Virus record (IMG/VR): IMGVR_UViG_3300050821_005436
Span: 1-64,000 of that record
Origin: a virus
Length of the DNA: 64,000 nucleotides
Reading direction: 5' to 3' (one strand)
How positions within the stretch are numbered: the stretch's first letter is position 1; each line of letters begins with the position of its first letter. Below the pieces are notes generated by a model. It did not search any database, had not been told where the DNA came from, and saw nothing but the letters and a program-made list of their open reading frames with translations. Shown one piece after another: positions 21,538 through 41,628 of this stretch. The position numbers were made by a program, and so were the translations under genes.

Positions 21538-21540
21538 AAT

Positions 21541-23239: not shown

Positions 23240-23255
23240 AATTTTCCTCTACTAT

Positions 23256-23263
23256 TATTTATA
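23256..23263 (-). promoter_or_regulatory. perfect T4 late promoter octamer (TATAAATA)
   Basis: The minus strand reads TATAAATA, the exact T4 late consensus. A start near 23250 gives a leader of about 10 bases with AGAGGA before ATG 23239. It would drive six genes ending with dCMP deaminase. Confidence 0.75.
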
Positions 23264-23300
23264 GAGTAATAGCACGATATAATTCTTATTTCACTGACAC

Positions 23301-23306
23301 TAAATA
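23301..23306 (+). promoter_or_regulatory. T4-late-type promoter (TAAATA), divergent
   Basis: TAAATA lies 81 bases before ATG 23387. The leader ends in a strong ribosome site (AAGGAG at 23373-23378). The 147-base gap between 23240 and 23386 holds only this promoter, the divergent TATAAATA and the leader. Confidence 0.5.
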
Positions 23307-23386
23307 TTAATCCATACTTGCACAATGTAGGTATGTAATGATATTGAAGAAATCAAAAGTTTTACTAACATATAAAGGAGAAAATT

Positions 23387-24166: not shown

Positions 24167-24888
24167 GTAATAAAAACGGGACATAATGTCCCGTTTTTCA
24201 TTTTATCAATCAACCACTCTGCTATATGTTTATGTGCTTCACAATTTAAATGCCCGCTCGGAAGCAAAACCTCTGTTGTACCCAATTTATCATAAAACCA
24301 ATTTATTGACAAATCATTTTGTATTTCTTCTTGTTGTAATAGCTTAAATTCTAAGAAATCTATATTTAGAATGTTACATACATATTTTACTGCTAATATT
24401 TGCAAATAATAATTATCTTCTAAGATCCTCTCATCAATAAAATCTATACAAACATTTTGTATTTCGTATGCTTCCAATTTATCTCCGTGGTGTGTTTCTA
24501 TAATTGACGGGATAATAATACTGAAATTTTTATTATAGATATTATTATACAACCATAATCTATATTTTTCAGTCATCTGATGTATGCACAATATAGATTC
24601 ATTAGGATTATTTTTTCTAATCTTGTTTAATGCCACACATAAATTTTGCAATATTTCTAGTTGAGAAGCACCACTAATGCCTAGGTTTAAAACTTCACAG
24701 CATAATATATTTTTCAAATGACCAGAATAAGTTAAATCTCGTCGTTCTAAATCATTGTCGTTAGAAATTGACCGTATTATTTTGTATGCCTCATATGGAT
24801 CAGTAATTAATGTATAACCAGGAACATTCTTTTCTTCCCAAAGTTCTGCTCCAGCAGTAAATGAGTCTCCAGCACAAACAATAATCAT
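24154..24888 (-). CDS. SGNH-hydrolase-like protein (3' end reads through a terminator hairpin)
   Basis: The 244-residue protein has G-D-S-F-T-A-G-A-E-L-W-E-E (Ser9), N-L-G-I-S-G-A-S-Q, H-Q-M-T in place of M-Q-D-T, and L-P-S-G-H-L-N-C-E-A-H. The last 15 or so codons pass through the hairpin at 24172-24198 and overlap the end of the tail fibre gene by 13 bases. These residues follow the end of the shared domain, so this tail looks like recent extension into non-coding DNA. It is coupled to the next upstream paralogue by ATGA. Confidence 0.7.
   Translation of the reverse strand: MIIVCAGDSFTAGAELWEEKNVPGYTLITDPYEAYKIIRSISNDNDLERRDLTYSGHLKNILCCEVLNLGISGASQLEILQNLCVALNKIRKNNPNESILCIHQMTEKYRLWLYNNIYNKNFSIIIPSIIETHHGDKLEAYEIQNVCIDFIDERILEDNYYLQILAVKYVCNILNIDFLEFKLLQQEEIQNDLSINWFYDKLGTTEVLLPSGHLNCEAHKHIAEWLIDKMKNGTLCPVFITYET
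24172..24198. terminator. bidirectional rho-independent terminator
   Basis: A perfect 12-base-pair stem (AAAAACGGGACA with TGTCCCGTTTTT) with a TAA loop has T tracts in both directions. It ends the tail fibre gene on the plus strand and lies within the last codons of the SGNH gene on the minus strand. Confidence 0.9.
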
Positions 24889-25658
24889 AAAAATTTATCC
24901 TCGACATACTCAATCAAATCATTTGCAATTATCTCATGATATTGACCTTTCAAATGCCAAGAAGGTAACACTGCATCCTTCTCTTTTATTCGATAGTAAT
25001 CATATGCTCTCTGTAATGCGCCCATCGGAAAAATATCAACGGTTTTCATATACTCAGACTTCATTGCACGTATTTTTTCAGACATATCAAATCTGTATGT
25101 GTATGCATGATTATAAAAAGAAAAATTTAAGAATGATATGTTAAGTTTCTTGAAGAAGTCTCGTATAATAAATGCTTGAGAATAAAATTGTGTCGCCAAT
25201 GTTTCTTCATCTATAAATTTCTTAATATAACTTACTAATTCTGAAGTCTCTGGATAGTTGTTCATATGAATGTCAATTTTATCAACATTCAACCCCTCTA
25301 ATTGATATTTTTGGCTACTGCAAAAAGTCATTCTATTTCTGAACGTGTCTTGGGTGACGCAGATAATTTTTTCGTTTGGATATTCCATCCTAATTCTAAC
25401 AAAATTGTTGAACATGTTTTCGGTGATCATTTGTTGTGATGCGCCACCTTTCCCAAAATTGTGTATTGACCAATCTGTTCTCATTTCCTTCATGAATCCA
25501 GTATAAGTTAGATCCTTTCTAAGAACATCAGTAGTTGGATTATACACCATACTACTTCTAGCAATGTCAGGTGTCATTAAGCAATATCCTGGCACATTTT
25601 GTTCTTCCCACAATTCAGTTCCATCCGTATATGAATCACCAACACAAATAACGATCAT
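24885..25658 (-). CDS. SGNH-hydrolase-like protein
   Basis: The 257-residue protein has G-D-S-Y-T-D-G-T-E-L-W-E-E (Ser9), N-F-G-K-G-G-A-S-Q, T-Q-D-T, and L-P-S-W-H-L-K-G-Q-Y-H. Its central region (L-A-T-Q-F-Y-S-Q-A-F, F-P-M-GA) groups it with the probably inactive paralogue at 20926-21537, while that one has lost both catalytic blocks. A ribosome site (GAGGAAG) and a late promoter motif lie upstream. It heads a two-gene unit. Confidence 0.72.
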   Translation of the reverse strand: MIVICVGDSYTDGTELWEEQNVPGYCLMTPDIARSSMVYNPTTDVLRKDLTYTGFMKEMRTDWSIHNFGKGGASQQMITENMFNNFVRIRMEYPNEKIICVTQDTFRNRMTFCSSQKYQLEGLNVDKIDIHMNNYPETSELVSYIKKFIDEETLATQFYSQAFIIRDFFKKLNISFLNFSFYNHAYTYRFDMSEKIRAMKSEYMKTVDIFPMGALQRAYDYYRIKEKDAVLPSWHLKGQYHEIIANDLIEYVEDKFL

Positions 25659-25695: not shown

Positions 25696-26550
25696 ATGAC
25701 TACGATTAAAATCACTTTTAATACGCACTACACGTTAGATTTTACATTAACTGAATCTGAGATATCAGAGCGATGGCTCACTGTGTTAAAAGATGCTATC
25801 AAAAATTACAGTATAGATGATCCAATGAGATTCTATGGCTTTTCTTCCAATGCTGATATTGCACTCCAAAAAATAAACACAACAATAGATACGATAAACA
25901 ACCATAAACCGTTAATTGATAGAAACGTGTTATCAGTTCATGATTATGATACTCTGAATTACTTGCACAGCATTTTTGAAAAACACCATGGACTATCAGA
26001 TGCGCAAACAAATGAATTCAAAAGTATGCCAGAAGAATACCAGAAAGCATTGTGCCAATTGAACATAGATGTTCATAGATGCGAGTCTGTCCTCAGAGGT
26101 AACAAACCCAGGGTCGTCGTAACGTATTTTGAGCAACCAAAGACAGAAAAATTCAATGATGCTGATTTTGATTTGATGACTAATCGATATGAATTCGGAA
26201 CTGTTTATCTTAATTATGTGAATATCGGAAAAACTTTAGAAGATTTAGCACAAGACAATGATGAATATATCAGTAGAGAAGCATTCAAGCCATTCATAAA
26301 TTTTAGTTCTGATTTCAATATCAAATTTTGGGACACTGATGTTCCAAAAGCAAAGATAGTAGAAAAAATGATGGACGAATATTACATTGAGCATCAAGAA
26401 TTTTTCAATTCGTTGGGCTATGAAAGAAATCATCCGTATTTAAAACCAGGCTCAATTCCTGTAGCAAAATTGTCTAGCAGTGAAGATCGTGAATCTATCA
26501 TTAACAACATAAAGAACAATCAACTCATTACAAAGATATTAATAGAATGA
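25696..26550 (+). CDS. uncharacterised phage protein coupled to a radical SAM gene
   Basis: The 284-residue soluble protein begins with a beta-hairpin-like segment (T-I-K-I-T-F-N-x-H-Y-x-L-D-F-T-L) and continues with helices. A central V-V-V-T-Y-F and a C-terminal N-H-P-Y-L-K-P-G-S-I-P-V segment stand out. No catalytic motif is recognised. It overlaps the radical SAM gene by four bases (ATGA 26547-26550), so it may be that enzyme's partner or substrate carrier. It has no ribosome site; see the promoter at 25685. Confidence 0.6.
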   Translation: MTTIKITFNTHYTLDFTLTESEISERWLTVLKDAIKNYSIDDPMRFYGFSSNADIALQKINTTIDTINNHKPLIDRNVLSVHDYDTLNYLHSIFEKHHGLSDAQTNEFKSMPEEYQKALCQLNIDVHRCESVLRGNKPRVVVTYFEQPKTEKFNDADFDLMTNRYEFGTVYLNYVNIGKTLEDLAQDNDEYISREAFKPFINFSSDFNIKFWDTDVPKAKIVEKMMDEYYIEHQEFFNSLGYERNHPYLKPGSIPVAKLSSSEDRESIINNIKNNQLITKILIE

Positions 26551-27500
26551 AACGAATCATAGAAATTTTCTCAGAAAAGCCAAACACATTTCATATTGAT
26601 TTTTTGATCAACAATATTTGCCAAAATTCTTGCTGGTATTGTGAGCCAAATCTATACAATGGTTCTAATCATCATTTCGAAGATGAAGAATTATTTGCAT
26701 TCATTGATAATCTGAATTCGAATCTAAAAGATAAAAAAGTTCATATCGCATTTAGTGGTGGCGAGCCAACTCTCTATCCCAAATTTATAGAGTTAGTTCA
26801 ACGAATGAAATCCTTAGGATGGACAGTAGGACTTACTTCAAATGGACAAAGAACTGCTAGATACTTTTCTGAACTCGCACCACACTGTGCATATATTGCA
26901 ATGTCGTATCATTCAGAATTTGCTAAAGAGGATTGGATGAATACTGCGTTAGCTGCTGCTGAACATACACAAGTGCTCGTGCGTGTTATGATGGATCCAT
27001 ATAATTGGGATCATTGCTATGCTAAGTTTAATGAGTTTGCTGCAAATCCCAATTTAGCTGTTGAAGCTGTCAGATTATATAGACATGAAGGTATGAGTCT
27101 AGGGGCAGACGGGAAGGATGTGGGTTATATTGATGAACAAGACGCATGGTTAAACAGCGTATCAAGAGTAGAACGTAAGAATTGGATTCAAACCGAAGTC
27201 AATACAACTGATGCATTCGCCAAGTTCAATGATAGTGAATTCAAAAAGATCAATACGATTGATTTAGTTAATTCAAAGCAGAATTCATTTGTAGGATTTG
27301 AATGTGATATCGGTAAAGCGAGTTTGTTTATAAATTATGATGGCCAAGTGAAGCGGGGGAATTGCTTCAATGATGGATGGGAGGGAAGATTTAATGAAGT
27401 GGATTTAGAAAAACTCTTATCCACTTCTACCAAATGTCGGACGCCATTCTGTTATTGCGGGATTGACGTTACTGTCCCTAAGAGAAAATTACCTAAATAA
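26547..27500 (+). CDS. radical SAM protein
   Basis: The 317-residue protein has the CxxxCxxC cluster (Cys25, Cys29, Cys32) and G-G-E-P-T (71-75), the signature of S-adenosylmethionine radical enzymes. The C-terminal 70 residues hold further Cys residues, including a closely spaced C-R-T-P-F-C-Y-C-G group, as in SPASM or twitch domains that bind auxiliary iron-sulfur clusters. Unlike the five minus-strand radical SAM proteins, its extra Cys residues follow the core domain. The substrate is unknown. It converges with the minus-strand operon, overlapping by 12 bases. Confidence 0.85.
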   Translation: MKRIIEIFSEKPNTFHIDFLINNICQNSCWYCEPNLYNGSNHHFEDEELFAFIDNLNSNLKDKKVHIAFSGGEPTLYPKFIELVQRMKSLGWTVGLTSNGQRTARYFSELAPHCAYIAMSYHSEFAKEDWMNTALAAAEHTQVLVRVMMDPYNWDHCYAKFNEFAANPNLAVEAVRLYRHEGMSLGADGKDVGYIDEQDAWLNSVSRVERKNWIQTEVNTTDAFAKFNDSEFKKINTIDLVNSKQNSFVGFECDIGKASLFINYDGQVKRGNCFNDGWEGRFNEVDLEKLLSTSTKCRTPFCYCGIDVTVPKRKLPK

Positions 27501-28649
27501 TTTATGATTTGTTCCGCGCGTTTCATCTAATCCATTCAACACCTCTTTCATTTTCTTACGTTCAGTATAGTCAGGTTTATTGTTTTCTAACCAAGAATTC
27601 ACAGTAGAAACAATCTGTTGATTATCAATCTTTGTGATACTTTCTTTAACTTGCTCTTGCTCTTGCTCCGTTAATGCTGAGGCAGAATAATAAGATGGTG
27701 AATAGACTGGATTCACATGCATATCTAAATTATAGTTTTTTAACCAATTATACATGCATGGAACTTCTACATAATTGATTGCTGATAGTGTTTGACACAC
27801 CATGTAATATACATTGTCAGGCTTATTCGCAATGAACCATTCTAAGTTAGCAACGATGTTTTCAAATTTAGAACCCCATCGCAAATAATCATTAAATTCA
27901 CCTAGTGCATCAATACTGAATTGCACAACTACGCGCTTAAACTGACTCCAAAGTTCAATAAATTCTTCATCTTTGATCGTTAAATTGATACTGTATTCAA
28001 TATGAATGTTCTTAGCAACTCCCATATCAATAAGTTTTTGAAGCAATACCTTGTGTTGCTTGATTAGAAGTGGTTCTCCACCATTGATATAAATTTTCTG
28101 AACATGTTTGCTTATAGCTGCTAGATTTTCGTAAAATTCTTCGCTTTCGAACCAACGAGTTTGCTTAGAATTTTCAAAAGCTTTGAACCATTCAATTTTC
28201 TTTGTAAGAAACTGTTCATCCTTACTCCACTTAGAACTAGATATGCTGTTACACGTAATGCAGGCCAGGTTACACGTATTACCCAACCGTAACTCGATGA
28301 ATTGTAAAGGTGAATCAATGCTACCATCCACATACGTAAATGTGTCATCTTCTTTCCAGTTATATAAATGATTTTCTAACTGTCTCTTACTTCTTCCGCC
28401 AGATCGCTCTGTTTCATAGCATCTATGGCATTGGGAAGGTTCAATTCCAGCAAGCATATTTAGACGAACTTGTTTAAATGATTCACTGTTGCGAATTTCA
28501 TCTAATGTATTTTTACCTAAGAAAAGCATCTGCCCGTTTGTTCTAGCAAATGTATCTGAATTAGAAAAATCACCTTGACAACATACACTTACAGAACCAT
28601 TTGGATGTGATGCAAGATGATTCCACATCAATGCACATGATTTAAACAT
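27489..28649 (-). CDS. radical SAM protein with N-terminal cysteine domain
   Basis: The 386-residue protein has an N-terminal Cys domain (Cys5, Cys23-Cys24, then C-H-R-C at 74-77 followed by Y-E-T-E) ahead of the radical SAM core CxxxCxxC (Cys126, 130, 133) and N-G-G-E-P-L-L. The Cys pattern is that of a SPASM/twitch auxiliary domain, placed before the core instead of after it. The enzyme should cleave SAM and modify an unknown target. It is the last gene of the operon from 38436 and overlaps the preceding radical SAM gene by eight bases. Confidence 0.85.
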   Translation of the reverse strand: MFKSCALMWNHLASHPNGSVSVCCQGDFSNSDTFARTNGQMLFLGKNTLDEIRNSESFKQVRLNMLAGIEPSQCHRCYETERSGGRSKRQLENHLYNWKEDDTFTYVDGSIDSPLQFIELRLGNTCNLACITCNSISSSKWSKDEQFLTKKIEWFKAFENSKQTRWFESEEFYENLAAISKHVQKIYINGGEPLLIKQHKVLLQKLIDMGVAKNIHIEYSINLTIKDEEFIELWSQFKRVVVQFSIDALGEFNDYLRWGSKFENIVANLEWFIANKPDNVYYMVCQTLSAINYVEVPCMYNWLKNYNLDMHVNPVYSPSYYSASALTEQEQEQVKESITKIDNQQIVSTVNSWLENNKPDYTERKKMKEVLNGLDETRGTNHKLFR

Positions 28650-29931
28650 TTTTCCACCATTCTAACGCATCACCAGTCAATATTGTATTCATAGATAAAG
28701 CTGTTTTCCTATGTTCCTCTAACTTCATATATCGTTCCTTACCCCATTTGATACCTTGTTCATAGTTATCATATTTTTGATCAAACGTCTGACGATTCTT
28801 CATGTCTTTAAATGTATCTGCATATACTTTTGTATAAGGTGAATTCAAAGTGCTTTCATATGAAATCAAATCATCCAAGATTGGATCTAGAATTGCATGC
28901 GGAAGACACATCGGGCTCATGATTGCAGAACTTTCAAAATCAAACGTAATCTTAACATAAGATTTTACTTGCAATTCTGCTGCAAGTCTCATTAAATTTT
29001 TCATATCAAACAGACCAGGCAAAGTTATCGTCACATCAATAACCATTCCGTTCATTCCGAACAGATTATTTAAGAACATACCTTCTTTAAAGTTCTCTAA
29101 CCATTGCTCCCATTTAAGTCCAGTTCTAATGTATTCTGCAACATCGCCTGTTGCATCCATGCTTGCACATACATTCACCCCCTTAAAGTAAGGTAACAAA
29201 TCATATAGATTTCTTACATTGCTTAGATTTGTATTGTATCGCACGATTACATTTTTACTCTGACCAGACTCTACAAGATGATTCATTATCGACCAGTGAA
29301 TAGGATACATAAGTGGCTCTCCACCAACCCAATATATTTCTTCAATACGATTTTCTTTGACTGCATCCCAAAGTTCTTGTTCCAAGACTTGTTGAAAATT
29401 TTCTATCTTCGCTTTGTTATCAGCATTCATCCATTTTTCAGTTTGCGGATTCCAAGTGCCTAGCATTCTTTTTTCACTTTCCCATGCAGAACTAAGTTCT
29501 GGGCCACACATACGACATTTGAAGTTACACAGATTGCTAACACGGTAATCATAGCTCATTGGCTTCAATGAAGTATATCCATTTTCGTCAATAGAATCAA
29601 ACGCTTCTTGAATCTTCTGTGAAAACAATGTTTCATTAAAATATTGTTTATATGTATGAAGATTCAAGATATTATCATTGCATATTTCGCACTGCGAGGG
29701 AACTTCACCATTTTTCATTTTCAATCGTATGCTTCGAATGTATTCGCTATTCCACCAATCATCTAGGGGAATAGGATTATAGTCTGAGTGTTTTGCTTCA
29801 CCCTTATCAATATACCCTTTAAAGAATTGCGGTTCCTCTCTACTAGCACAACATAATCTGCGCTCTCCTGTAGGATGCGCCATAGTATGCAATACCGAAG
29901 CAGTGCAAAATGATTTTGGTATTTGAGACAT
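28642..29931 (-). CDS. radical SAM protein with N-terminal cysteine domain
   Basis: The 429-residue protein has the same order: Cys9, Cys27-Cys28 and C-E-I-C (81-84) in the N-terminal domain, the core cluster Cys135, 139, 142, then V-G-G-E-P-L-M. A C-G-P-E-L-S-S-A-W segment follows the core cluster and recurs in the 419-residue paralogue (C-G-P-Q-L-S-S-T). It starts on the stop of a small protein gene (TAATG at 29931), so the two are coupled. Confidence 0.85.
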   Translation of the reverse strand: MSQIPKSFCTASVLHTMAHPTGERRLCCASREEPQFFKGYIDKGEAKHSDYNPIPLDDWWNSEYIRSIRLKMKNGEVPSQCEICNDNILNLHTYKQYFNETLFSQKIQEAFDSIDENGYTSLKPMSYDYRVSNLCNFKCRMCGPELSSAWESEKRMLGTWNPQTEKWMNADNKAKIENFQQVLEQELWDAVKENRIEEIYWVGGEPLMYPIHWSIMNHLVESGQSKNVIVRYNTNLSNVRNLYDLLPYFKGVNVCASMDATGDVAEYIRTGLKWEQWLENFKEGMFLNNLFGMNGMVIDVTITLPGLFDMKNLMRLAAELQVKSYVKITFDFESSAIMSPMCLPHAILDPILDDLISYESTLNSPYTKVYADTFKDMKNRQTFDQKYDNYEQGIKWGKERYMKLEEHRKTALSMNTILTGDALEWWKNV

Positions 29932-30224
29932 TATAAGTGTTTAATTATGAATTCTAGTGCTTCTTTTTCGCAATCGAAGACTAAAATAATTCTTGAGTAA
30001 AGGGATGTTCCAGCAAATCCCTGAGGATAAATTGGTGTTTCTAATTCTAATTTTGATCTTACAGATTTTCCTTGAAGGAAATTTGATTGTGCAGTAGTTA
30101 GCCACATGCGAGTTTCGAAACATAATGAATCATTTTCTACTGTTTTCATTTCAGTATATGCTCCTGGCCATGAGGCGTCTAAATTGATTCTATTCCAGGA
30201 TTTCAAAACTACTTCAGTTGCCAT
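29931..30224 (-). CDS. small protein between radical SAM genes (97 aa)
   Basis: The 97-residue protein is mostly beta-like with a C-terminal R-I-I-L-V-F-D-C-E-K-E-A-L-E-F. The same C-terminal pattern (aromatic strand, acidic turn, [DE]A-hydrophobic-x-F, basic end) occurs in the small proteins at 30224-30523 and 31748-32047. It shares single-base stop/start overlaps with both neighbours (TAATG). It could be a substrate or adaptor of the adjacent radical SAM enzymes; there is no Cys-rich or leader-like core as in typical RiPP precursors. Confidence 0.6.
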   Translation of the reverse strand: MATEVVLKSWNRINLDASWPGAYTEMKTVENDSLCFETRMWLTTAQSNFLQGKSVRSKLELETPIYPQGFAGTSLYSRIILVFDCEKEALEFIIKHL

Positions 30225-30523
30225 TAATTCGCCATTCTATTGTTGTATCTTAAACTAAATTCAAACGCATCCTGGTCAGTATCAAATTCTATATAATAAT
30301 GTATAGAATACTTTTGGCCAGGCCATTCAGTGTGAGTCTGTTTTACAATTGTCTCTCTAATTATCCTATATGATTTTTGTTTTAACCAATCGAGAGACAA
30401 TATTTCCTTATACAGAGAAAATGGATTCTTCTCTATTTCTTTTTTATCATAAACAACTTTCCCAACTTCCATCGTCCTCAAGAAGTTTGGTTCAATTTTT
30501 TCGAGTAATACTCTGCTTGTCAT
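30224..30523 (-). CDS. small protein between radical SAM genes (99 aa)
   Basis: The 99-residue protein ends with Y-Y-I-E-F-D-T-D-Q-D-A-F-E-F-S, the shared C-terminal pattern of this group. The N-terminal half is Lys/Glu-rich and helical. It overlaps the upstream radical SAM gene by 32 bases and shares its stop with the start of the next small gene. Function unknown; likely the same role as its two relatives. Confidence 0.6.
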   Translation of the reverse strand: MTSRVLLEKIEPNFLRTMEVGKVVYDKKEIEKNPFSLYKEILSLDWLKQKSYRIIRETIVKQTHTEWPGQKYSIHYYIEFDTDQDAFEFSLRYNNRMAN

Positions 30524-31751
30524 AAAGAGTTTTATTAATTAACAACTCAGCTAGTTCTGGAGCAACATCGAAAATATTTTCGTTCCTCTGAAAATCCAAT
30601 AATTCAGTGCTAATTGTTAATTGGTCACTTAAGTCTTGCCCAGGTTGCATCATAAAGCTGATCAATCCTTCAGCAGAAGAAACCAAATTGTTATCAAACT
30701 CAAATTTAGATTTCTTCAAATATTCAACATAGCTTTCTAGTTTAATTTTTGCATATTGTTTAAATTCATCACTTGTATTCTTAACACAATAATATTCTTG
30801 TGTGTGCAAAAGGTTAAACAAAATTTCTGGTCTTGCACCATCTAACCAACCAGCTTCTCTAAAATATTTATGAATGTCTTCTAGACGTGCAATATTAAAA
30901 ACACTGATTGTAGGAGCAAACCAAACACAAACATTTGTATGTTCTTTAGTATAAATCATCATTTCATCAATATTTTTCTTAACGACTGACCAATCTGTTC
31001 CATAGCGCCAATATTCAGCACGATCCTCAATTTCATCTATACTAAAATTCATAGTAACACAATCAAATTTATGCCAGGCATCCCTGAAATCAAATGATTT
31101 ATAAGTTAATTTACTACCATTGGTAGAATATTGAATATTCACATCCGTTCTATTTTCTTCAATCAACTTATTGATAATTTTATAGTGATCTTCCATTAAT
31201 AATGGTTCGCCGCCCGCAAAATGCATTGCCTTAACTTGATTAGTATTCTGTTCAATAATTTGATTAAGACCAATTTCTGATGCACTTCGAATGTGTGTTA
31301 CTTTGTCACTTTTAATTCCTGATGCCCTATCTGACAGTTGCTTATATGTGCTACTCAATTGTGGTCCGCATGTTCTGCATGCATAGTTGCATAAATTGCT
31401 TGATCTAAAATCCCAATTCAACATTTTTACATCTGCTGTTCCATCTTCTTGTGTAGAATCTATCAACTCTTGGGCATGATCTAAAAATTGGTGATTGTAT
31501 GATTTTCTAAGAGATACTTGTCCAGCCTCTTCTGCTTTCCAACATGTTTTGCATACATCTAGTTTTTTATCTGCTAGAATGTCAATTCTAAATTTCTTAA
31601 ATTTTTCATTGTTCATTATAGCGATGCCAGACTCATCTAGCTGCCCAAATGAATCAGCAGGATTCACTGCACAGCATGGATACACGTTGTTGTTTGGCCA
31701 TAAGTGCATAGAGACCCATGGCGCCACACAGAGATGTTTTCTTTCAGTCAT
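30492..31751 (-). CDS. radical SAM protein with N-terminal cysteine domain
   Basis: The 419-residue protein has Cys8, Cys26-Cys27 and C-K-T-C (67-70) before the core cluster Cys121, 125, 128, then A-G-G-E-P-L-L. The C-V-A-P-W start followed by C-C is the classic entry of SPASM-type domains. It is coupled upstream to a 99-residue small protein (ATGA) and downstream to two more, so each enzyme in this part of the operon sits beside small proteins of one type. Confidence 0.85.
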   Translation of the reverse strand: MTERKHLCVAPWVSMHLWPNNNVYPCCAVNPADSFGQLDESGIAIMNNEKFKKFRIDILADKKLDVCKTCWKAEEAGQVSLRKSYNHQFLDHAQELIDSTQEDGTADVKMLNWDFRSSNLCNYACRTCGPQLSSTYKQLSDRASGIKSDKVTHIRSASEIGLNQIIEQNTNQVKAMHFAGGEPLLMEDHYKIINKLIEENRTDVNIQYSTNGSKLTYKSFDFRDAWHKFDCVTMNFSIDEIEDRAEYWRYGTDWSVVKKNIDEMMIYTKEHTNVCVWFAPTISVFNIARLEDIHKYFREAGWLDGARPEILFNLLHTQEYYCVKNTSDEFKQYAKIKLESYVEYLKKSKFEFDNNLVSSAEGLISFMMQPGQDLSDQLTISTELLDFQRNENIFDVAPELAELLINKTLYDKQSITRKN

Positions 31752-32047
31752 TTCTTCAATTTAAACGCCAATGCGTCTAACCTATTTTCAAATTTAATAA
31801 AGAATTTGGCTTGCACAAAGGGGGAACAATTAACGTCTTGCTCTTCCTTTGTTTCTACTAATATTTTTACACTTTTATACATAGAAAAATCTATAGTTGA
31901 TAATATCTTTTGCACTGCATGATTTACAAAACGAATATGACCTAGATCATATTCATGTTCTGTATCGTAAAAAGACGCATCATATCTATCTTCAATAATG
32001 CCATAGCTTTGTGTATAAACTAAAACTTTTAGATCGTCATCATTCAT
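31748..32047 (-). CDS. small protein between radical SAM genes (99 aa)
   Basis: The 99-residue protein ends with F-F-I-K-F-E-N-R-L-D-A-L-A-F, the third example of the shared C-terminal pattern. The rest is a mixed alpha/beta sequence with no known motif. It overlaps both flanking radical SAM genes by four to eight bases, which indicates strict co-translation. Confidence 0.6.
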   Translation of the reverse strand: MNDDDLKVLVYTQSYGIIEDRYDASFYDTEHEYDLGHIRFVNHAVQKILSTIDFSMYKSVKILVETKEEQDVNCSPFVQAKFFIKFENRLDALAFKLKK

Positions 32048-33578
32048 TTGAGTCAGGATTAATAATATCCCTGACAGTCTGAGGTTCTACATATTCTTGA
32101 CTGCCAGGATTTGCTTTTGAGGGTGAAAGAATCCATCCCTCCTCTTTAGCTTTATTTAACAACTCCTTATGCACGAACTCCATCGCTTTGGTGTTATCAC
32201 CATTAATCAATTCTTTAATTGGTTTCAACTCTGTCATCGGAAGACTTAGATACCAATCTTTCAATGCAGGAAACGTTTCAACGAAGTTTTTACCTCTACG
32301 TTGATCGTATTCAGCAAAGAATGTTCTAAAATCCCTTTGGCGAGATTCCAAACTACTAACGTTGCTATGTCCCTCATCAACTTCACGAATATATGTTATC
32401 ATGCGTTCGATACCTTCGACTTCATGTTGAGCTAATCTGTATTTGTTTGCACTCAACCAACGTTCTATCCACAGTGCTTGCTTTAATCGAATATCTTCTG
32501 GTAGTGTATTAACACTCATAAAGCTAGGGAAACGAAGTATATTGAAACTCATACAAGCATGATGGTCTCCATATGTTCGTTTCAGGTCAAGCATATCATC
32601 CATGAAGTCTGTAATGCTTCCTAAGCACAATGCATTTATTGTCATCATAACATGCGTGTTTTTGCAATTCCCTTCTCGCAGCATGTAATCAAAATTATTG
32701 AGCCATTCATCATAGTTGAGTCCATCGCGAATATATTCTGCTTGTTCTCCCCAAGCTTCGCAACTTGTATAAAGATGAAAATCTTCAAAACTGTGTGTTG
32801 CATTACATAGACGTTCAATCAACTCTTTCTTTGCACCAAGATTACTATTGACTGCTAAACGAACTTTACAATCTGGATTCTGTTCCCACCAGTCTATAAG
32901 CTTCCAGAAGTCTGGGCTCATAGTTCCTTCTCCGCCTGTAACACGTAGTTCAACTAAACTATGCTGTAACTCATTATTCCACCATTGCCAAAATGCTTCA
33001 GTATATGGATTGTCCTTATTCTTAATTCCATATGGCATTGCCCAACTTCCATCTTGATGATAGGCACCTGCACCATCACTTACGAGGTTTTGATAAGCGC
33101 CATTAACTTTAATATCATGCGCCCAAGTTGAGCTAAAACTTGCATTGCAGTATGAACAAGCAAAGTTGCACAAATTATCAAACGAAATTTCTAATGTCTT
33201 TGGGGCAATATCTTCAAAATTTTTATATTGTTCAATGCTCTTTTGAATGTCTTCCTCTGAATGAATGATACTTTTATAAACTCTATCACTCACTAAATCC
33301 TTGCCTAAATTTTCTACTCGCCAACAGTAATCGCATTCTTTGGTTTGTATGCCATCAATCATTTCTTTTCTTACTGTCTTTCTATATTCTGTGTTTAGCA
33401 ATGCTTTGTAACTTGCTTTTAGTTCAGTAAGAGGAATCTTTGATGCTGGTGGATGATGGCATGCAGTGGAAGTTCCAGACCCTAACCAAACTGTTCCGTT
33501 AAGTCCTTTTGCTGCACAATAAGTTGGGCTAATTGCATCCAATACCCGTTTCTTGTAATCTGAGTTTGATTCATTCAT
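32040..33578 (-). CDS. radical SAM protein, CHH subtype
   Basis: The 512-residue protein has Cys21, a C-H-H group (40-42) instead of the Cys-Cys pair, C-D-Y-C-W (82-86) and the core cluster Cys137, 141, 144. The SAM-binding G-G-E-P motif reads G-G-E-G-T-M, an unusual change. It shares with the 461-residue neighbour the order C-x-A-K ... C-H-H ... C-x-Y-C-W-x-x-E-x-L-G and an F-Y-x-EYDQRRG segment near the end, so the two are a close paralogous pair. Substrate unknown. Confidence 0.85.
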   Translation of the reverse strand: MNESNSDYKKRVLDAISPTYCAAKGLNGTVWLGSGTSTACHHPPASKIPLTELKASYKALLNTEYRKTVRKEMIDGIQTKECDYCWRVENLGKDLVSDRVYKSIIHSEEDIQKSIEQYKNFEDIAPKTLEISFDNLCNFACSYCNASFSSTWAHDIKVNGAYQNLVSDGAGAYHQDGSWAMPYGIKNKDNPYTEAFWQWWNNELQHSLVELRVTGGEGTMSPDFWKLIDWWEQNPDCKVRLAVNSNLGAKKELIERLCNATHSFEDFHLYTSCEAWGEQAEYIRDGLNYDEWLNNFDYMLREGNCKNTHVMMTINALCLGSITDFMDDMLDLKRTYGDHHACMSFNILRFPSFMSVNTLPEDIRLKQALWIERWLSANKYRLAQHEVEGIERMITYIREVDEGHSNVSSLESRQRDFRTFFAEYDQRRGKNFVETFPALKDWYLSLPMTELKPIKELINGDNTKAMEFVHKELLNKAKEEGWILSPSKANPGSQEYVEPQTVRDIINPDSNE

Positions 33579-34956
33579 AAAATTCTCTATATTCTGGGAA
33601 CGTGGTTAAAAAATCTGTTCCTCTACGTTGATCGTATTCTTTGTAAAAACTTTTAAAATCTGCCAATCGTTTTTGTAAATCAACATTGTCGAGTGGTGTC
33701 AAAGCATATTCCTTTAGTCGCGCAATTTGATCCAATTCTTCTAGATAAAATCTACCAGCCGCATCCTCGCTATGATTTCTATCATGCATATTCATCCATT
33801 GATCAATATCATTAAGATACTTTAACTTAAATTCAGTAGGTAAAATTCTAACGTCTTGAAACTGTGGCCACCGCAAATAACTAATTACAAACGGGATGCG
33901 GTTAAATCCATCATCCTCGTTGTATGCTCGCCTGAAACTCCATATATCATACATGAAACCCTTGAATGAAGTCAAACTCAATGCATTAAACGTAATCATA
34001 AAATTTATACGGTAATTACTAGGTGTTTCGTCTAAGTATCTATCTACATTTTTTATAAATGTATCATAATCCATTCCATATCTGATATAATTAGCTTGAA
34101 TGTCTGACGCTTCGCAGCTTGTATATAATTCAAATTCTTTGACCTTGCCGTTTAGCTTATTTGCATAGTCAATTATTTTGTCTATTAATTGGTCAGGAAC
34201 CATCATGTTTGAATTTACTGATAATTTCAAATTTGGCATAGGATTCTGATAAATCATATCGAGCAATTTCCAGAAATCTTTACTTAACAATGGTTCGCCG
34301 CCCGTAATTCTTAGCTCTACTAACGTTTTACTTAGTTCAGGCCACCAACCCCAGAATGCATCTACATATGGATTATGATCTTTGTGAGGAATTGGCATCT
34401 TCCCTTGTTGCTTAATCCATTCTATATTACCTATCCCAACTTTATATTCACCATACCGCTCAATTTCTTCCATCCAACTAGAAGAAACGTCAGGGGAACA
34501 ATACATACAAGACATTTGACATACACTGCTAAACGAAATTTCTACGTATGTTGGCGTTATATTGTTTAATGGGCCATTCGTTAATACTTTATCAGCATAC
34601 GGATATGCCCAGCTTTCATCTGTGCTTTTGTATGTCCTATCACTGATATGATCATTACCTAAATCCTCAATGTTCCAACAATAGTTGCATGCAGATGGGC
34701 GACGAGATTCCATCATATCCAATCGTTCTAGCTTCTTTTCTTTTGTATTATGTAGTGCTGAATAATTGTTCTTAAGTTCATCCACTGAAATTTTATTTGA
34801 CTTACAATGATGACAGGATGACGTATGACCGTTGTGTAAGTTGATAGTCGTTTGTAGCCATTTAGCTAAACAAATACTATCGCTACCTGCCTTAATTTCT
34901 ATTTCAGTCATTCTCGATAACATGTTATCGACGTTGATCTGGTTTGGTGATTTCAT
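33571..34956 (-). CDS. radical SAM protein, CHH subtype
   Basis: The 461-residue protein has Cys29, C-H-H-C (48-51), C-N-Y-C-W (90-94), the core cluster Cys146, 150, 153 and T-G-G-E-P-L-L. It is the closest paralogue of the 512-residue protein, including the C-terminal EYDQRRG-T-D-F segment. It starts on the stop of an 82-residue small protein (TAATG at 34956) and overlaps the next gene by eight bases. Confidence 0.85.
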   Translation of the reverse strand: MKSPNQINVDNMLSRMTEIEIKAGSDSICLAKWLQTTINLHNGHTSSCHHCKSNKISVDELKNNYSALHNTKEKKLERLDMMESRRPSACNYCWNIEDLGNDHISDRTYKSTDESWAYPYADKVLTNGPLNNITPTYVEISFSSVCQMSCMYCSPDVSSSWMEEIERYGEYKVGIGNIEWIKQQGKMPIPHKDHNPYVDAFWGWWPELSKTLVELRITGGEPLLSKDFWKLLDMIYQNPMPNLKLSVNSNMMVPDQLIDKIIDYANKLNGKVKEFELYTSCEASDIQANYIRYGMDYDTFIKNVDRYLDETPSNYRINFMITFNALSLTSFKGFMYDIWSFRRAYNEDDGFNRIPFVISYLRWPQFQDVRILPTEFKLKYLNDIDQWMNMHDRNHSEDAAGRFYLEELDQIARLKEYALTPLDNVDLQKRLADFKSFYKEYDQRRGTDFLTTFPEYREFYE

Positions 34957-35204
34957 TAACTGTGTTTTAATCTCTCTACTAATTTTTCTTGGTCTGTCAA
35001 TTCTTTATTATAAATTATGATTCTTCCTTCAAGCAAGCATTCTTCATAATCGTGAATATCTGACAGGAACGAGTCTTCACCTTCATATTGAACTTCAATA
35101 TATGGCCATTTTGAATCTGAGTCTATGACCCTTATAATCATTCCAAACTCGTGTATAGTTTTAGAATATATTGAGCAACCAACCGGAATCGTCATTTGGC
35201 TCAT
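34956..35204 (-). CDS. small protein upstream of a radical SAM gene (82 aa)
   Basis: The 82-residue protein has an N-terminal beta-like half (I-P-V-G-C-S-I ... G-M-I-I-R-V-I, W-P-Y-I-E-V-Q-Y) that recalls small beta-barrel modules. It ends with D-Q-E-K-L-V-E-R-L. Its end differs from the DA-x-F group of the other small proteins. Start ATG 35204 overlaps the preceding glycosyltransferase-like gene by four bases. Confidence 0.6.
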   Translation of the reverse strand: MSQMTIPVGCSIYSKTIHEFGMIIRVIDSDSKWPYIEVQYEGEDSFLSDIHDYEECLLEGRIIIYNKELTDQEKLVERLKHS

Positions 35205-36139
35205 TGTAACCCTCTGTTGAAATTGAGAACATCCATTTCAGTAATCATTGCATTAGAAACATTCTTATGTGCGTTTGCATAATGATGCTTAAAAAACTTG
35301 CTTTGTTCAGCATTCATGTCGATTATAGGAAGATTCAATCTACTCCTGAGCATCGGAGTAATGTGATTAATATCATGGACTTGGTTCCAAATTTCTTTAA
35401 TCTTGTCAAAGTCATGCACTTCAATATAATCCCAATCTGTTAGCATTGTTAGATACGTTCCTAAGCGGGCACCGTAAATTGCATAATTGCCATTTTCTAT
35501 ATCAGCACCAACATTCATCCAGATCATTAAATTATCTAAATTGCGAGAATGCACTTTCTTTTCAAAATCTACAAGTGATGGCTTAGAACCTCTATCCAAA
35601 CACATCTTCACACCTTCTCTAAATCCTGCACGAAATGCTTGAAACGCACTTTGATTAGGATATGTTGTGCTATACGTATTATGTAGTGCGATATATTTAG
35701 GATCAAAGCAAAATTCAACATTGTTTTCGTCTTTTCCGTCGCTGTTTTCATGTGTCTTCATGTTGTTTATGAAATCTTTAGTCCATAAACTTAACCCACC
35801 GTTACCATAACAAAGACCATTGATATGGTTGCGTGCTTTCCAACGAAATACGCAATCATCTTGCCAATCCTGAATACATAATTGTAGATTAAAGAATTCA
35901 GGATCAGGAATATTGTCGCCGTCAATCAAAATAAATCTATCTGTCTCACTTACAGCGGCAGCGGCTTTATGGGCAGAATCTGAACCCTTGACTCCATCGA
36001 TGCGTTTTGCCCAGGGCACTATGTTTTGAACTTTAATCCAAAATTCCTCTTTTTTCGGCTCATCATAGGTCAAAAAGATAATATCTAAATCTGCTACGTC
36101 TATAATCTTATCACTACTAATGTATTCATTTTGAAACAT
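35201..36139 (-). CDS. glycosyltransferase-like protein (GT-A fold)
   Basis: The 312-residue protein has D-I-I-F-L-T-Y-D-E-P (19-28), R-I-D-G-V-K-G (46-52), and I-D-G-D-N (72-76), a DxD-type metal/nucleotide-sugar site. The N-H-I-N-G-L-C-Y-G-N-G-G segment follows and should close the sugar pocket. This is a common phage glycosyltransferase type. Its N-terminal half aligns in motif order with the degenerate units of the 965-residue repeat protein. The ATG at 36139 overlaps the previous gene by 14 bases. Confidence 0.75.
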   Translation of the reverse strand: MFQNEYISSDKIIDVADLDIIFLTYDEPKKEEFWIKVQNIVPWAKRIDGVKGSDSAHKAAAAVSETDRFILIDGDNIPDPEFFNLQLCIQDWQDDCVFRWKARNHINGLCYGNGGLSLWTKDFINNMKTHENSDGKDENNVEFCFDPKYIALHNTYSTTYPNQSAFQAFRAGFREGVKMCLDRGSKPSLVDFEKKVHSRNLDNLMIWMNVGADIENGNYAIYGARLGTYLTMLTDWDYIEVHDFDKIKEIWNQVHDINHITPMLRSRLNLPIIDMNAEQSKFFKHHYANAHKNVSNAMITEMDVLNFNRGLQ

Positions 36140-36470
36140 AAGAATCTCTCTCAGTTATCGAATCATCTGCTAAAATTAGCATATTATTCTTTACGGTTTT
36201 AAAATTTCCATCTTCTACTTTTTCTAAGTAGATAGTGTTAATACTAGATAGGGACATATTATGAATCTCACCATTCTTTACTTTATATTTTCCCATCTGA
36301 ATTGCTATAAATGCGTCAAGATCAACTACGATATAATCACCATCTTTATCTTCTATAGTGCAATCCGTAATATTTCCTTTAGCATCATAATATATTTTAT
36401 GCTCTATTGGTGGCGGTGCGACAAAAGTTGAGTCTGCTAATGCCTTCCAAAATTCATCCTCATTGGACAT
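36126..36470 (-). CDS. conserved small phage protein (114 aa)
   Basis: I start this gene at ATG 36470, giving 114 residues. A longer frame opens at 36566 but its extra 32 residues overlap the previous gene heavily and look unlike a protein start. The protein has W-K-A-L-A-D, I-Y-Y-D-A-K-G-N-I-T and a beta-rich C-terminal half. It lies between two glycosyltransferase-like genes. No function is recognised; it may be an accessory subunit. Confidence 0.6.
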   Translation of the reverse strand: MSNEDEFWKALADSTFVAPPPIEHKIYYDAKGNITDCTIEDKDGDYIVVDLDAFIAIQMGKYKVKNGEIHNMSLSSINTIYLEKVEDGNFKTVKNNMLILADDSITERDSYVSK

Positions 36471-37317
36471 ATTTCTGTATAACCTCATCTGTTGCGTAAT
36501 CTTTTTGATAATAATGAAATGGATACAATTGTCTAGTAAAACCAACTGTATGATTACAATCATCATCTATTTGTGAATAGAGTTTAGTGGTCCAATCCTC
36601 ATCGATACCCCAACCCTGAATTCCACCTTTCATATGAACAATTTTCGGGATGCTTAGGTCAGGAATGTAAAAATTTTCTTCCCCTAATATCTTTGCTGCA
36701 ATAGCAAAAACAACATCTGTGGTTGGATATGTATCTCTACAATTAATAAGCAATTCGTCTCTGAAGTAATCCCAATCTTGATAAATCTTTCTTGATAAAT
36801 CAAAGAACTCTGCTGATTGCATTGAATATCTGAAATAGAAAAATGCTGAATATAGATTTGGTAAGCTATTTTCATCAAACAATCGCCTATATGCTCTAGA
36901 ATTTGAAACATTTCCCAGATAATCAACGACTTTTGTTGTGAATAAAACATCTTTCAACTGATATACTGACCACCAATGGTCTATGTTGCGATTGAAAGTC
37001 ATGTCACAATCTAGCTTAACTGTTTCTTTGAATGGCGTAAGCCAATAAGCTTTCCATTCGTCACCTAGTTTCCAACTTGGGTCTTCATTCTCATTTGAAT
37101 CAGGAATCTCTATCACATAATCAAACACTTTTTTATGTTTGTCAGTAATTTCCTTGAACGTCTCTGAATCAACTGCAACTGCATATAAATTAGTTTCTTG
37201 TGTTTTTTTAATTGACGCTGCTTGCAAATATGCTAGACGCAAGTAATCACATTTGCTAGTATTTTTCGCAAATGTGAAGTATCCTTTTTGTGCAGAGAAT
37301 TCACCTCTAATTAGCAT
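36460..37317 (-). CDS. glycosyltransferase-like protein (GT-8-like)
   Basis: The 285-residue protein has a DxD site K-L-D-C-D-M (Asp103, Asp105), preceded by W-x-A-Y-W-L-T-P-F-K-E-T-V. A later S-A-F-F-Y-F-R resembles the strand after the active site in GT-8 or related enzymes. It would transfer a sugar from a nucleotide donor. It overlaps the preceding paralogue by seven bases, and the two share the spacing of DxD to the end of the domain. Confidence 0.7.
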   Translation of the reverse strand: MLIRGEFSAQKGYFTFAKNTSKCDYLRLAYLQAASIKKTQETNLYAVAVDSETFKEITDKHKKVFDYVIEIPDSNENEDPSWKLGDEWKAYWLTPFKETVKLDCDMTFNRNIDHWWSVYQLKDVLFTTKVVDYLGNVSNSRAYRRLFDENSLPNLYSAFFYFRYSMQSAEFFDLSRKIYQDWDYFRDELLINCRDTYPTTDVVFAIAAKILGEENFYIPDLSIPKIVHMKGGIQGWGIDEDWTTKLYSQIDDDCNHTVGFTRQLYPFHYYQKDYATDEVIQKYVQ

Positions 37318-38138
37318 TCGTATTTCTCCAACTTGTCTAGTAATTCTTCATCTTGACACGACCATTTTCCTAAGATATGCACGTTATGATTTTTTATGTA
37401 ATCAACATATTTTTTAGAATTCTTCTCGTATGTGTAGATCAGCCCTCTACCTTCTTTATAATCAATTATTTTAACATCCGTCGATAGCATGCACATTTCT
37501 CCCGGAAGAGATTCTGCTCCAACATTACCTCGTGCTGCTAATGCAATAGTTAATGCATAATCATTTCTATATGGTTGAGGGTCTACTCCAAATAATTTAT
37601 GATAATAATCATATCTGTCTCTTACTTGTTTCATCATGTAAAATGTTGATCCTGCTGCATACGATCGGTCAAAATAACATACTGTCGCCCAACTCATAGG
37701 TAACGTATATTTTGATATTAGACTGCTGCCAGCAAAAGAATCTCTGTTAGTAGGATCGAATACTTTAGAATAGCACATGAATTTATTGTTCGTTGCAAAT
37801 AGCATTTTCAGTGATGGTTCCAAAACAAAATAATCAGCATCAATAAGTAATGTTTTATCGTAAGGAGATAAATCATATGCATCTGGACGAGATTGATTGA
37901 ACCATTTTATATTTTGGTATTCCTCCCCATCAAACATTGCCCTATTCGTATAAGACCCTTTATCTATAATGATACTATCTTCTGCATGTTTGAAGTTGCA
38001 GTCTTTATCTGTAATGATAGTTGTAGGTATTCCCAAATTTTTCTTGACAAATCCAGCTGCAACATCTGCTAATCTAGTGTATTCAAAATCGCCGTTGTTT
38101 ATAGCGAAAATTATGCATCCCTTAGATTTGTTTGCCAT
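37311..38138 (-). CDS. glycosyltransferase-like protein (GT-8-like)
   Basis: The 275-residue protein has L-L-I-D-A-D-Y-F-V (Asp100, Asp102), the DxD site of GT-A enzymes, after an N-terminal A-I-N-N-G-D-F-E-Y segment that starts the Rossmann-like fold. The W-F-N-Q-S-R-P-D block before the DxD is typical of such phage proteins. It overlaps the preceding 104-residue gene by 17 bases. Donor and acceptor are unknown. Confidence 0.7.
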   Translation of the reverse strand: MANKSKGCIIFAINNGDFEYTRLADVAAGFVKKNLGIPTTIITDKDCNFKHAEDSIIIDKGSYTNRAMFDGEEYQNIKWFNQSRPDAYDLSPYDKTLLIDADYFVLEPSLKMLFATNNKFMCYSKVFDPTNRDSFAGSSLISKYTLPMSWATVCYFDRSYAAGSTFYMMKQVRDRYDYYHKLFGVDPQPYRNDYALTIALAARGNVGAESLPGEMCMLSTDVKIIDYKEGRGLIYTYEKNSKKYVDYIKNHNVHILGKWSCQDEELLDKLEKYEC

Positions 38139-38436
38139 TTCTGATCCTCAGAATTTTCTGATACTCAACTTCCCAATCATTCATGATTGTTTGGTAACAT
38201 TGCTTTAGTTCATCTAATAATTTTTCACGTTCGATTCGGATTGGATTTCCATAACTATCCTCAATTACATTGACTTCTACAATTGATAGGAATGTAATAA
38301 GTTCCGGGGAAGCCTTAAATAAGCCACCGTTATGTGCGACGTATAATTGTTGTTGAGATTTTTCTTTGAGTTCTAGCTTTTTGGCTGCATGATTAAATGC
38401 AGCCTGAGCCATACTATTGATATTTGAGTTATTCAT
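38122..38436 (-). CDS. conserved phage protein (104 aa), first gene of the radical SAM operon
   Basis: The 104-residue protein has N-G-G-L-F-K-A-S-P-E-L-I (37-48) and I-E-D-S-Y-G-N-P-I (58-66), blocks that I associate with a small conserved protein of aquatic T4-like phages. Function is unknown. No Shine-Dalgarno is seen: the start codon lies seven bases after the -10 box of a sigma70-type promoter, so its mRNA would be nearly leaderless. Everything downstream to 27489 is packed behind it. Confidence 0.65.
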   Translation of the reverse strand: MNNSNINSMAQAAFNHAAKKLELKEKSQQQLYVAHNGGLFKASPELITFLSIVEVNVIEDSYGNPIRIEREKLLDELKQCYQTIMNDWEVEYQKILRIRNGKQI

Positions 38437-38442
38437 ACAAAC

Positions 38443-38471
38443 ACTGTAGCAGGTTTTGTATGAAATGTCAA
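38443..38471 (-). promoter_or_regulatory. sigma70-type promoter of the radical SAM/glycosyltransferase operon
   Basis: The minus strand has TTGACA (38466-38471), a 17-base spacer and TACAGT (38443-38448), then six bases and ATG 38436. Both boxes and spacing fit the bacterial housekeeping consensus. No TAAATA motif lies here, so the operon may be expressed earlier than the structural genes. Confidence 0.75.
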
Positions 38472-38473
38472 AT

Positions 38474-39448
38474 TTAACTACCTGTTACTGTACCGCCTGA
38501 GATTATGGGAGTGCCCCAAGTGTTGGATAGGTATGTCGTAGGCGGCATACCTGCTGACCAATTTAGTTGCGATACACCATCAACTATATCAGTAGGAGGT
38601 CCAAATGTATCAGATGCTGCGTCAGTCCAAACGATAGAGAATGTCAATACTGAACCTACATCACCGTTTGATCCTTGGTGTCCGTTTGAATTTACGTTTG
38701 TTTGAATAAAATTGACGTTTGCATATGGTGCTGCACCTGCAGAATATTGCTTTTGAATGGTTTGGGCGCCAATTGTCTGTTGCCAATAACCTATAGCAAC
38801 AGGAGGCACAAGAGTTCCAGTTCCACCAGCAGTATTCCCAGAAGCAGTCGTTGTATTATACCCAAAGCTTATAGTTCCGCATGCGGCACATAAATTTACC
38901 CATGACGTATTTTTATTATTTGTAGTTACTGGTGTATGTGTGAATGAGAAATTGATTGTTCCGCCAGCATTGAAGAAATATCTAGCTGCATCTCCAGAGG
39001 TAAAAGTGACAGTGACAGGAAAAGTTAATGCATTTTGCCAACGATTATTATTTGCTGCGCTGTATGCGGATGATCCAGATGCTGCAGTCGTTCTAGTAGT
39101 TACTTTGCCGATATTATTAGTGACTGTGTTGATATCTCCACTAAGAACTGATACGGCTTGAATTAAGTTACCTGTTGTTGGATTCGTCAGTGCAGAAATT
39201 GATGTGCCTTGATGATTTGCAGATGCAGTGATTTTCGAGAACATAGAAGACCATTGTGCTGCTGTTACTAATGTTCCGGTGGTTACCGGTGATAATACTG
39301 ATCCTTGACCGTAACCCTTGCTTCCGTTGCCAACGCCCCAAATTGTATTAACGTTAGCGACTGAGTTGTTAGCTACACCATTTGCTGATCCAGTCGCGAA
39401 AGTGTTGTAATCCCCATTTGCGATTATTTGGCCTGTTGCGTAAGTCAT
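38474..39448 (-). CDS. virion protein, fibre-associated
   Basis: The 324-residue protein is Gly/Ser/Thr/Asn-rich, with almost no charged residues, as expected of a secreted fibre or baseplate-associated protein. It starts with M-T-Y-A-T-G-Q-I-I-A-N-G-D-Y-N and has F-F-N-A-G-G-T-I-N-F in the middle, a pattern that I associate with structural proteins of aquatic phages. It has a ribosome site (AGGA) and lies at the 3' end of the late tail cluster. Role unknown. Confidence 0.7.
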   Translation of the reverse strand: MTYATGQIIANGDYNTFATGSANGVANNSVANVNTIWGVGNGSKGYGQGSVLSPVTTGTLVTAAQWSSMFSKITASANHQGTSISALTNPTTGNLIQAVSVLSGDINTVTNNIGKVTTRTTAASGSSAYSAANNNRWQNALTFPVTVTFTSGDAARYFFNAGGTINFSFTHTPVTTNNKNTSWVNLCAACGTISFGYNTTTASGNTAGGTGTLVPPVAIGYWQQTIGAQTIQKQYSAGAAPYANVNFIQTNVNSNGHQGSNGDVGSVLTFSIVWTDAASDTFGPPTDIVDGVSQLNWSAGMPPTTYLSNTWGTPIISGGTVTGS

Positions 39449-41622: not shown

Positions 41623-41628
41623 TATTTA
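41623..41628 (-). promoter_or_regulatory. T4-late-type promoter overlapping the stop of the giant gene
   Basis: The minus strand reads TAAATA; TAA 41626-41628 is the stop of the 4425-residue gene. Six bases separate it from ATG 41616, one more than in the strict leaderless cases. Confidence 0.55.

Follow-up and report, generated by a model that had tools for sequence, protein, structure and literature searches.

Radical SAM genes and glycosyltransferase genes have both been described in phages. Pelagimyophages carry a variable host-recognition island in which tail fibers, glycosyltransferases, and radical SAM cassettes lie together (PMC7029224). The Campylobacter phages CP220 and CPt10 encode 11–12 radical SAM genes, five of which lie within an exchangeable block (PMC2853527), and the T4-like environmental genome TARA_ERS488813_N000010 has 12, reported as iron-sulfur gene content (PMC5332604). 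Mycobacteriophage glycosyltransferases glycosylate virion proteins, namely the capsid and the tail tube (Freeman et al. 2023, pmid 37329881, as cited in PMC12619734). Here, we analyze an operon that joins both kinds of enzyme in the IMG/VR virus record IMGVR_UViG_3300050821_005436 (67,193 bases), of which positions 1 to 64,000 form the stretch of 64,000 nucleotides hereafter called the window. Fourteen genes on the minus strand (38436–27489) encode five radical SAM enzymes (rSAM-A to E), three GT-A-like enzymes (GT1 to GT3), and six small proteins. As judged from gene order and sequence comparison, the front half of this operon is a conserved unit of a large, uncultured clade of T4-type phages.

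The phage of the window and the pelagimyophages are alike in being T4-type phages of marine or freshwater habitats that keep fibers, glycosyltransferases, and radical SAM genes together. However, the pelagimyophage cassettes are variable additions, and their glycosyltransferases are read as modifying lipopolysaccharide (LPS; PMC7029224), whereas the series from the small protein s104 through the glycosyltransferases to rSAM-A is nearly invariant in the clade of the window. TARA_ERS488813_N000010 is likewise an aquatic, T4-like phage genome rich in radical SAM genes, with neither a unit nor a function described in the part of the source available. The mycobacteriophage enzymes parallel the reading proposed below in that phage glycosyltransferases put glycans on virion proteins, but their acceptors are capsid and tail tube rather than fibers, and radical SAM enzymes go unmentioned there. 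CP220 and CPt10 resemble the window in that a T4-type phage carries a block with several radical SAM genes. That these belong to the same family was rejected: their best match reaches 31 bits against a curated cut-off of 170 bits for N_Twi_rSAM (NCBIfam NF033640, twitch domain-containing radical SAM protein), and the Campylobacter phage enzymes are therefore a different family. A metabolic benefit has been suggested for them (PMC2853527), in line with which the operon could serve accessory metabolism, with a cofactor or nucleotide made or salvaged for the infected cell; given the different family, and a unit that is here a core block tied to fiber genes, we consider this very unlikely. A literature search, with subscription journals mostly outside its scope, returned no account of the conserved unit, its late promoter, or its link to Bdellovibrionota.

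Conservation of the front half behind the tail-fiber genes

The operon consists of two parts, a conserved front half and a lineage-specific rear half. The front half comprises s104, GT1, GT2, a small protein, GT3, and rSAM-A, and lies directly behind the tail-fiber genes on the same strand. When viral contigs were scanned with rSAM-A, 213 related stretches were obtained, and the order in the fetched loci is TF (a tail-fiber or virion protein), T300 (a fiber-like protein of ~300 aa), s104, GT1, GT2, a small protein, GT3, often GT4 (a second GT3-like gene), rSAM-A, and variable genes. To avoid selecting for rSAM-A, the scan was repeated with TF and with GT3 (at least 599 stretches each, 80 kept). 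Among 49 TF loci with at least 7 kbp downstream, 45 contained s104, GT1, GT2, GT3, and rSAM-A, one was cut before rSAM-A, and three had none of these genes. A true lack of the unit was rejected for two of the three: L152 ends at a contig edge, and in the record of L168, T300 and s104 lie at the opposite end, adjoining the contig edge, so that the unit is present in 45 of 46 readable TF loci. The third (L169), a 278-kb record without T300, s104, or any N_Twi_rSAM match above the cut-off, remains. T300 and s104 are also missing from the 67-kb record of L167.

The last glycosyltransferase is directly followed by rSAM-A in 38 of 41 loci from the TF scan and in 42 of 47 from the GT3 scan, and in most of the exceptions a gene is inserted or the radical SAM block is inverted. 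The complete unit was found in 150 fetched loci (86 distinct GT3 proteins), which is not a number of phages because some contigs were fetched more than once. T300 is present in every TF-scan locus with s104 (46/46), and the unit and the ~300-aa fiber protein are present or absent together. No tblastn match to s104, GT1, GT2, or GT3 was obtained in 50,697 phage records, using s104, GT2, and GT3 of the window and GT1 and s104 of a relative as queries.

Upstream of the unit, and on the same strand, lie T300 (38474–39448), TF (39469–40845), a 4425-aa virion protein, and baseplate genes. TF matches a PHROG tail fiber family (phrog_19602, 2e-12) as well as virion structural proteins, and its relatives also stand immediately upstream of the unit in other loci. 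T300, the candidate acceptor, has GYGQ ... HQ ... FFNSGG motifs and no PHROG match of its own. The 4425-aa protein (41626–54903; PHROG 10938) is unusually long. The nearest relatives of the baseplate wedge protein (~35% identity) are found in jumbo phages of the PBECO4, Rak2, and phiN3 types.

Gene calls and enzymes of the operon

All 14 open reading frames (ORFs) of the operon proposed in the earlier note were recovered, with overlaps of 1–32 nt at 13 of 13 junctions. One call needed correction: the ORF listed as 36126–36566 is overlong, and its start is most likely at 36470 (MSNEDEFW; 114 aa), where the overlap with GT2 is 11 nt. Two observations favor this start: the longer version would run 107 nt into GT2, and in locus L007 the relative begins within a few codons of the same site. 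When codons were compared with L007, synonymous changes far outnumbered nonsynonymous ones in GT3 (100:23) and rSAM-A (85:10), showing that the operon ORFs are real genes.

The earlier note had also named five radical SAM genes, and all of them score far above the N_Twi_rSAM cut-off with catalytic cysteines intact (295–323 bits over the full model, E 1e-88 to 1e-96): rSAM-A (33571–34956; 314 bits), the last gene of the conserved unit, rSAM-B (32040–33578; 299 bits), rSAM-C (30492–31751; 323 bits, with Pfam SPASM at the N-terminus, residues 8–71), rSAM-D (28642–29931; 295 bits), and rSAM-E (27489–28649; 305 bits). No protein of 14 control genomes exceeded the cut-off. The alignment of the five enzymes retains the CxxxCxxC and GGE motifs and four N-terminal auxiliary-cluster cysteines, with C8, C27, C67, C70, C121, C125, C128, and GGE invariant; the Cys and GGE motifs of rSAM-A are likewise invariant among its relatives. 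NF033640 is a subfamily model with no assigned reaction, a look for characterized members yielded none, and compared with its members in general, the window is distinguished by five paralogues in one phage operon together with glycosyltransferases. Sugars are the substrates of several twitch and SPASM enzymes (BtrN, NeoN), and peptides are those of many others; the reaction therefore cannot be read from the family.

The three GT-A-like enzymes of the earlier note fared unevenly. For GT3 (35201–36139), an AlphaFold2 (AF2) model (pLDDT 84, pTM 0.83) matched GT-A structures in a Foldseek search of the PDB (HddC, 1.5e-4; SunS, 1.6e-4; ArnC, 5.6e-4; GlyE, 1.6e-3), its DxD motif is invariant among relatives, and the family has no Pfam model. 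The modeled structure thus supports assignment to the GT-A fold class, but not a specificity, because TM-scores are only 0.2–0.4. GT1 (37311–38138) and GT2 (36460–37317) have no Pfam match above the cut-off and are putative GT-A glycosyltransferases on the grounds of their DxD motifs (near-invariant in GT1, invariant in GT2 as D89 and D91). The place of GT1 in the gene order is also conserved.

The unit begins with s104 (38122–38436), for which there are relatives with a conserved core in 178 fetched loci and no PHROG or Pfam match. Between GT2 and GT3, relatives have a beta protein of ~190–210 aa at what we call the ‘s200’ position, where the window has the ~114-aa protein with the corrected start (36126–36470). 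The position is shared, with very weak sequence similarity (E 0.007 against the ORFs of the window itself), and a model of the s200 protein of a relative (pLDDT 87) had no PDB match. None of the proteins of the unit has a membrane-like segment (maximum KD19 1.42), and the unit encodes no membrane protein, flippase, polymerase, or lipid-linked initiation enzyme.

A probable late promoter in relatives

The core of the T4 late promoter is ATAAATA. Of 117 distinct loci, 69 have this motif ahead of s104, in most cases 32–36 nt from the start, and it precedes inner genes in 4 of 655 cases; the looser form TAAATA[AT] precedes s104 in 100 of the 117. Because ATAAATA precedes s104 far more often than the inner genes, the unit is in relatives most likely transcribed from its own promoter as a single late operon. 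In the window, s104 is preceded by a promoter-like TTGACA-17-TACAGT on the minus strand (38443–38471; 10 of 12 matches, TG before the second hexamer), although such sites are common by chance and one match is no evidence of function by itself.

A counterpart in Bdellovibrionota

Among 84,980 bacterial and archaeal genomes, strong matches to rSAM-A came nearly all from Bdellovibrionota, mostly from metagenome bins and including several clearly chromosomal contigs. The N_Twi_rSAM cut-off was passed in 30 of 114 genomes of Bdellovibrionota, against 2 of 249 for Pseudomonadota and 0 of 149 for Bacillota (Bdellovibrionota vs. Pseudomonadota, Fisher 1e-14). GT3 was found in seven of the 114 Bdellovibrionota genomes, all of them N_Twi_rSAM-positive (p 5e-5), and in none of the 249 Pseudomonadota genomes, and in most Bdellovibrionota cases GT3 or GT4 lies within 3 kbp of N_Twi_rSAM genes. 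One genome (G104) has the GT3-GT4-rSAM order of the phages, with a radical SAM enzyme closest to type C. GT2 was not found in the 114 genomes; therefore, as far as tested, only the GT3/GT4-rSAM part is common to phages and Bdellovibrionota.

The bacterial neighborhoods are varied. In a Bdellovibrio metagenome bin (L247:6623–13532), an rSAM-A relative is contained in an 834-aa open frame between two flagellin genes, and the neighborhood also holds FliD and two GT9 enzymes. Elsewhere, neighbors are polysaccharide genes, and Bac_transf, Polysacc_synt_2, GT2, and amine-oxidase genes adjoin Bdellovibrionota relatives. One Bdellovibrionota genome has about 31 N_Twi_rSAM matches, many of them in one array, and N-terminal-twitch radical SAM genes form very large arrays on the Bdellovibrionota chromosomes of L295, L296 (G004:C192), and L297 (G002:C15). 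A gene at L295:8991–10067 was considered as a CP220-like amidinotransferase and rejected for want of Pfam support.

In the rSAM-A tree, phage and Bdellovibrionota sequences interleave, and well-supported branches require at least five label changes; genes have thus been exchanged repeatedly between phages and bacteria. This pattern, together with the hypervariable region behind rSAM-A, is what would be expected if the genes were passive cargo exchanged with bacteria and had no defined joint task. Strict gene order, overlapping frames, and purifying selection point the other way; conservation by itself already speaks against passive cargo, which we rate as the least probable of the explanations considered. 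The sharing of rSAM-A, GT3, GT4, and the partner gene at 25696 (see below) with Bdellovibrionota suggests that members of this group may be the phage host.

The same sharing raises a wider possibility, about which we are doubtful, that GT3/GT4 and N_Twi_rSAM form a new class of glycan-modification system in which radical SAM enzymes edit sugars attached to surface filaments. Its targets would be tail fibers in this abundant, uncultured phage clade; in Bdellovibrionota, they would be flagella, pili, or glycans of the envelope. The genes would possibly have been exchanged from or with Bdellovibrionota because the phages infect them.

The lineage-specific rear half

Other phages have differing combinations of rSAM-B, C, D, and E relatives. 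Four small proteins accompany the radical SAM genes of the window and are counted with rSAM-B to E as lineage-specific cargo: 82 aa (34956–35204, between GT3 and rSAM-A), 99 aa (31748–32047), 99 aa (s99b; 30224–30523), and 97 aa (s97; 29931–30224), all on the minus strand. They were found only in three near-identical records, i.e., that of the window and two IMG/VR contigs, and are absent from roughly 230 other loci in which relatives of rSAM-A to E occur. When the 97-aa and the two 99-aa proteins were used in IMG/VR scans, only the two near-identical contigs were returned; with no detectable relatives, the four do not qualify as a general radical SAM partner, and such a conserved role was rejected. 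Changes relative to L007 (synonymous:nonsynonymous) show that the 97-aa protein (7:0) and s99b (13:2) are clearly constrained, the other 99-aa protein moderately (10:5), and the 82-aa protein weakly (17:15). Profile comparison detected no relation among the four, and a shared C-terminal motif suspected by eye was dropped (best pair, 4% probability).

These results bear on whether the small proteins are themselves the substrates, with radical SAM enzymes modifying them as carrier-bound proteins or in the manner of ribosomally synthesized and post-translationally modified peptides (RiPPs) and the glycosyltransferases decorating the product. The alternation of small-protein and radical SAM genes would fit, as would the constraint on two of the proteins and the Foldseek placement of GT3 near the peptide S-glycosyltransferases SunS and ThuS, at low TM-scores. 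Nevertheless, the proteins are missing where relatives of the enzymes persist, are mutually unrelated, and have 0–2 cysteines with no leader/core layout, so that the combination expected of a RiPP precursor (a leader and a modifiable core, conserved with its maturase) was not seen; we therefore regard small-protein substrates as improbable. The earlier note had seen no RiPP precursor either, which agrees with proteins that are Cys-poor and not conserved with the radical SAM genes. Its further idea, that small proteins beside radical SAM genes define the system, is not supported, given their restriction to three near-identical records. The note had also held that wide occurrence of the small proteins away from radical SAM neighbors would count against its proposal, and so narrow a distribution speaks neither for nor against this.

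In L007, the radical SAM array is interrupted by an HNH-like gene and one more 97-aa gene, so the rear half is fluid. The former (L007:13107–13604) is HNH-endonuclease-like and lies between two radical SAM genes, the latter (L007:6506–6799) lies before rSAM-A, and both are features of the closest relatives that are absent from the window. Other phages (L018, L023, and L025) have radical SAM arrays with ~195-aa proteins in between (WPSSICxxFPExPxN... type), and the arrays of L023 and L025 adjoin an apparent tail sheath gene.

Converging genes and other cargo of the window

A plus-strand pair converges on the operon, as the earlier note had described, and its radical SAM enzyme (26547–27500) proved to be of another type: it lacks the N-terminal twitch domain, matches Pfam Radical_SAM only (5e-12), and reaches just 26 bits against N_Twi_rSAM. 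A viperin-like defense role was rejected, with 48 bits against an NCBIfam viperin cut-off of 180 and a match confined to the radical SAM core. The partner gene (25696–26550) has a relative at L321:5360–6292 (E 5.8e-28), which lies in a Bdellovibrionota cluster with GT3 and rSAM-A.

Further genes of the window are of glycan-decorating types, i.e., an epimerase (10379), a DegT aminotransferase (11311), and a carbamoyltransferase (19439). A 965-aa protein (14530–17427) has a GT3-like part. Six plus-strand genes (2558–3217, 12431–13315, 13312–13914, 13911–14549, 17456–18358, and 18355–19020) encode proteins that begin alike (M-[KR]-[LI]-[YFN]-E-[ILK] ... [FY]LYRG) and form an apparent paralogous family; three of them were tested and had no Pfam match. 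Five proteins encoded at 20926–25658 have similar starts (GDSFTxGxELWEE-like in four), look SGNH-hydrolase-like by eye with no support from Pfam, and may be glycan esterases or acyltransferases.

Discussion

Our preferred reading, put forward tentatively, is that the front half is a late glycan-building and glycan-editing unit of the tail-fiber locus, acting most likely on the adjacent fiber protein. The soluble GT-A enzymes would most likely build a short glycan, and rSAM-A would alter a sugar carbon of that glycan by radical chemistry, be it epimerization, oxidation, or deoxygenation. The most likely carrier is T300, and s104 would assist in client binding or assembly. rSAM-B to E and the small proteins would be a lineage-specific extension that adds further edits, in which the small proteins would most likely be dedicated helpers of the neighboring radical SAM enzymes. 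Gene content and order, conservation, family membership, the GT-A fold of GT3, the promoter motif of relatives, and the linkage of GT3 to N_Twi_rSAM in phages as well as bacteria are established by the analysis; we infer the glycan substrate, the reaction type, the fiber carrier, and the roles of the small proteins. The glycan-decorating cargo elsewhere in the window is in keeping with this reading. A radical step on a sugar is proposed because the glycosyltransferase partners are constant in phages and bacteria, and fiber modification fits best because the late unit of soluble glycosyltransferases and radical SAM enzyme comes and goes with the fiber protein. The earlier note had proposed that a carrier protein or phage component is modified; its joint glycosylation and radical SAM operon stands, and a phage component is the best-fitting target, whereas the part it gave to the small proteins is not supported.

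Several points weigh against this reading. Target and reaction are both inferred; the nearest PDB sequence to rSAM-A is that of MoaA, over the core only, and SPASM/twitch enzymes are often directed at peptides. In the lineage of the window, a sigma-70-like site has replaced the late motif before s104. The co-occurrence of T300 and the unit might simply reflect a shared exchangeable block, and the neighbors in Bdellovibrionota are mixed, comprising surface-polysaccharide as well as filament genes.

The main rival is that the unit modifies the LPS O-chain or capsule of the host late in infection, so that progeny avoid sticking to debris or other phages are kept out; its location beside the fiber genes would then result from co-evolution of receptor and fiber. 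The pelagimyophage glycosyltransferases are interpreted in this manner, and the host-recognition island that holds them also has radical SAM cassettes (PMC7029224); the Bdellovibrionota relatives adjoin polysaccharide genes, and the cargo of the window includes sugar-nucleotide and carbamoyl enzymes. However, the unit has none of the membrane-associated or lipid-linked functions listed above and no membrane-like segments, and it is all-or-none with the fiber protein, with which in mind we think modification of host glycans rather unlikely.

Phage radical SAM genes have been classed as variable auxiliary metabolism. Here, rSAM-A is instead a near-invariant part of the tail-fiber locus across hundreds of contigs from aquatic phages, next to glycosyltransferases whose families lack a Pfam model and are unmatched among cultured phages. 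A six-gene unit with a candidate acceptor and a counterpart in Bdellovibrionota makes the role of radical SAM enzymes in phages testable. If radical editing of fiber sugars does occur, phages would have a new means of diversifying their contact with the host.

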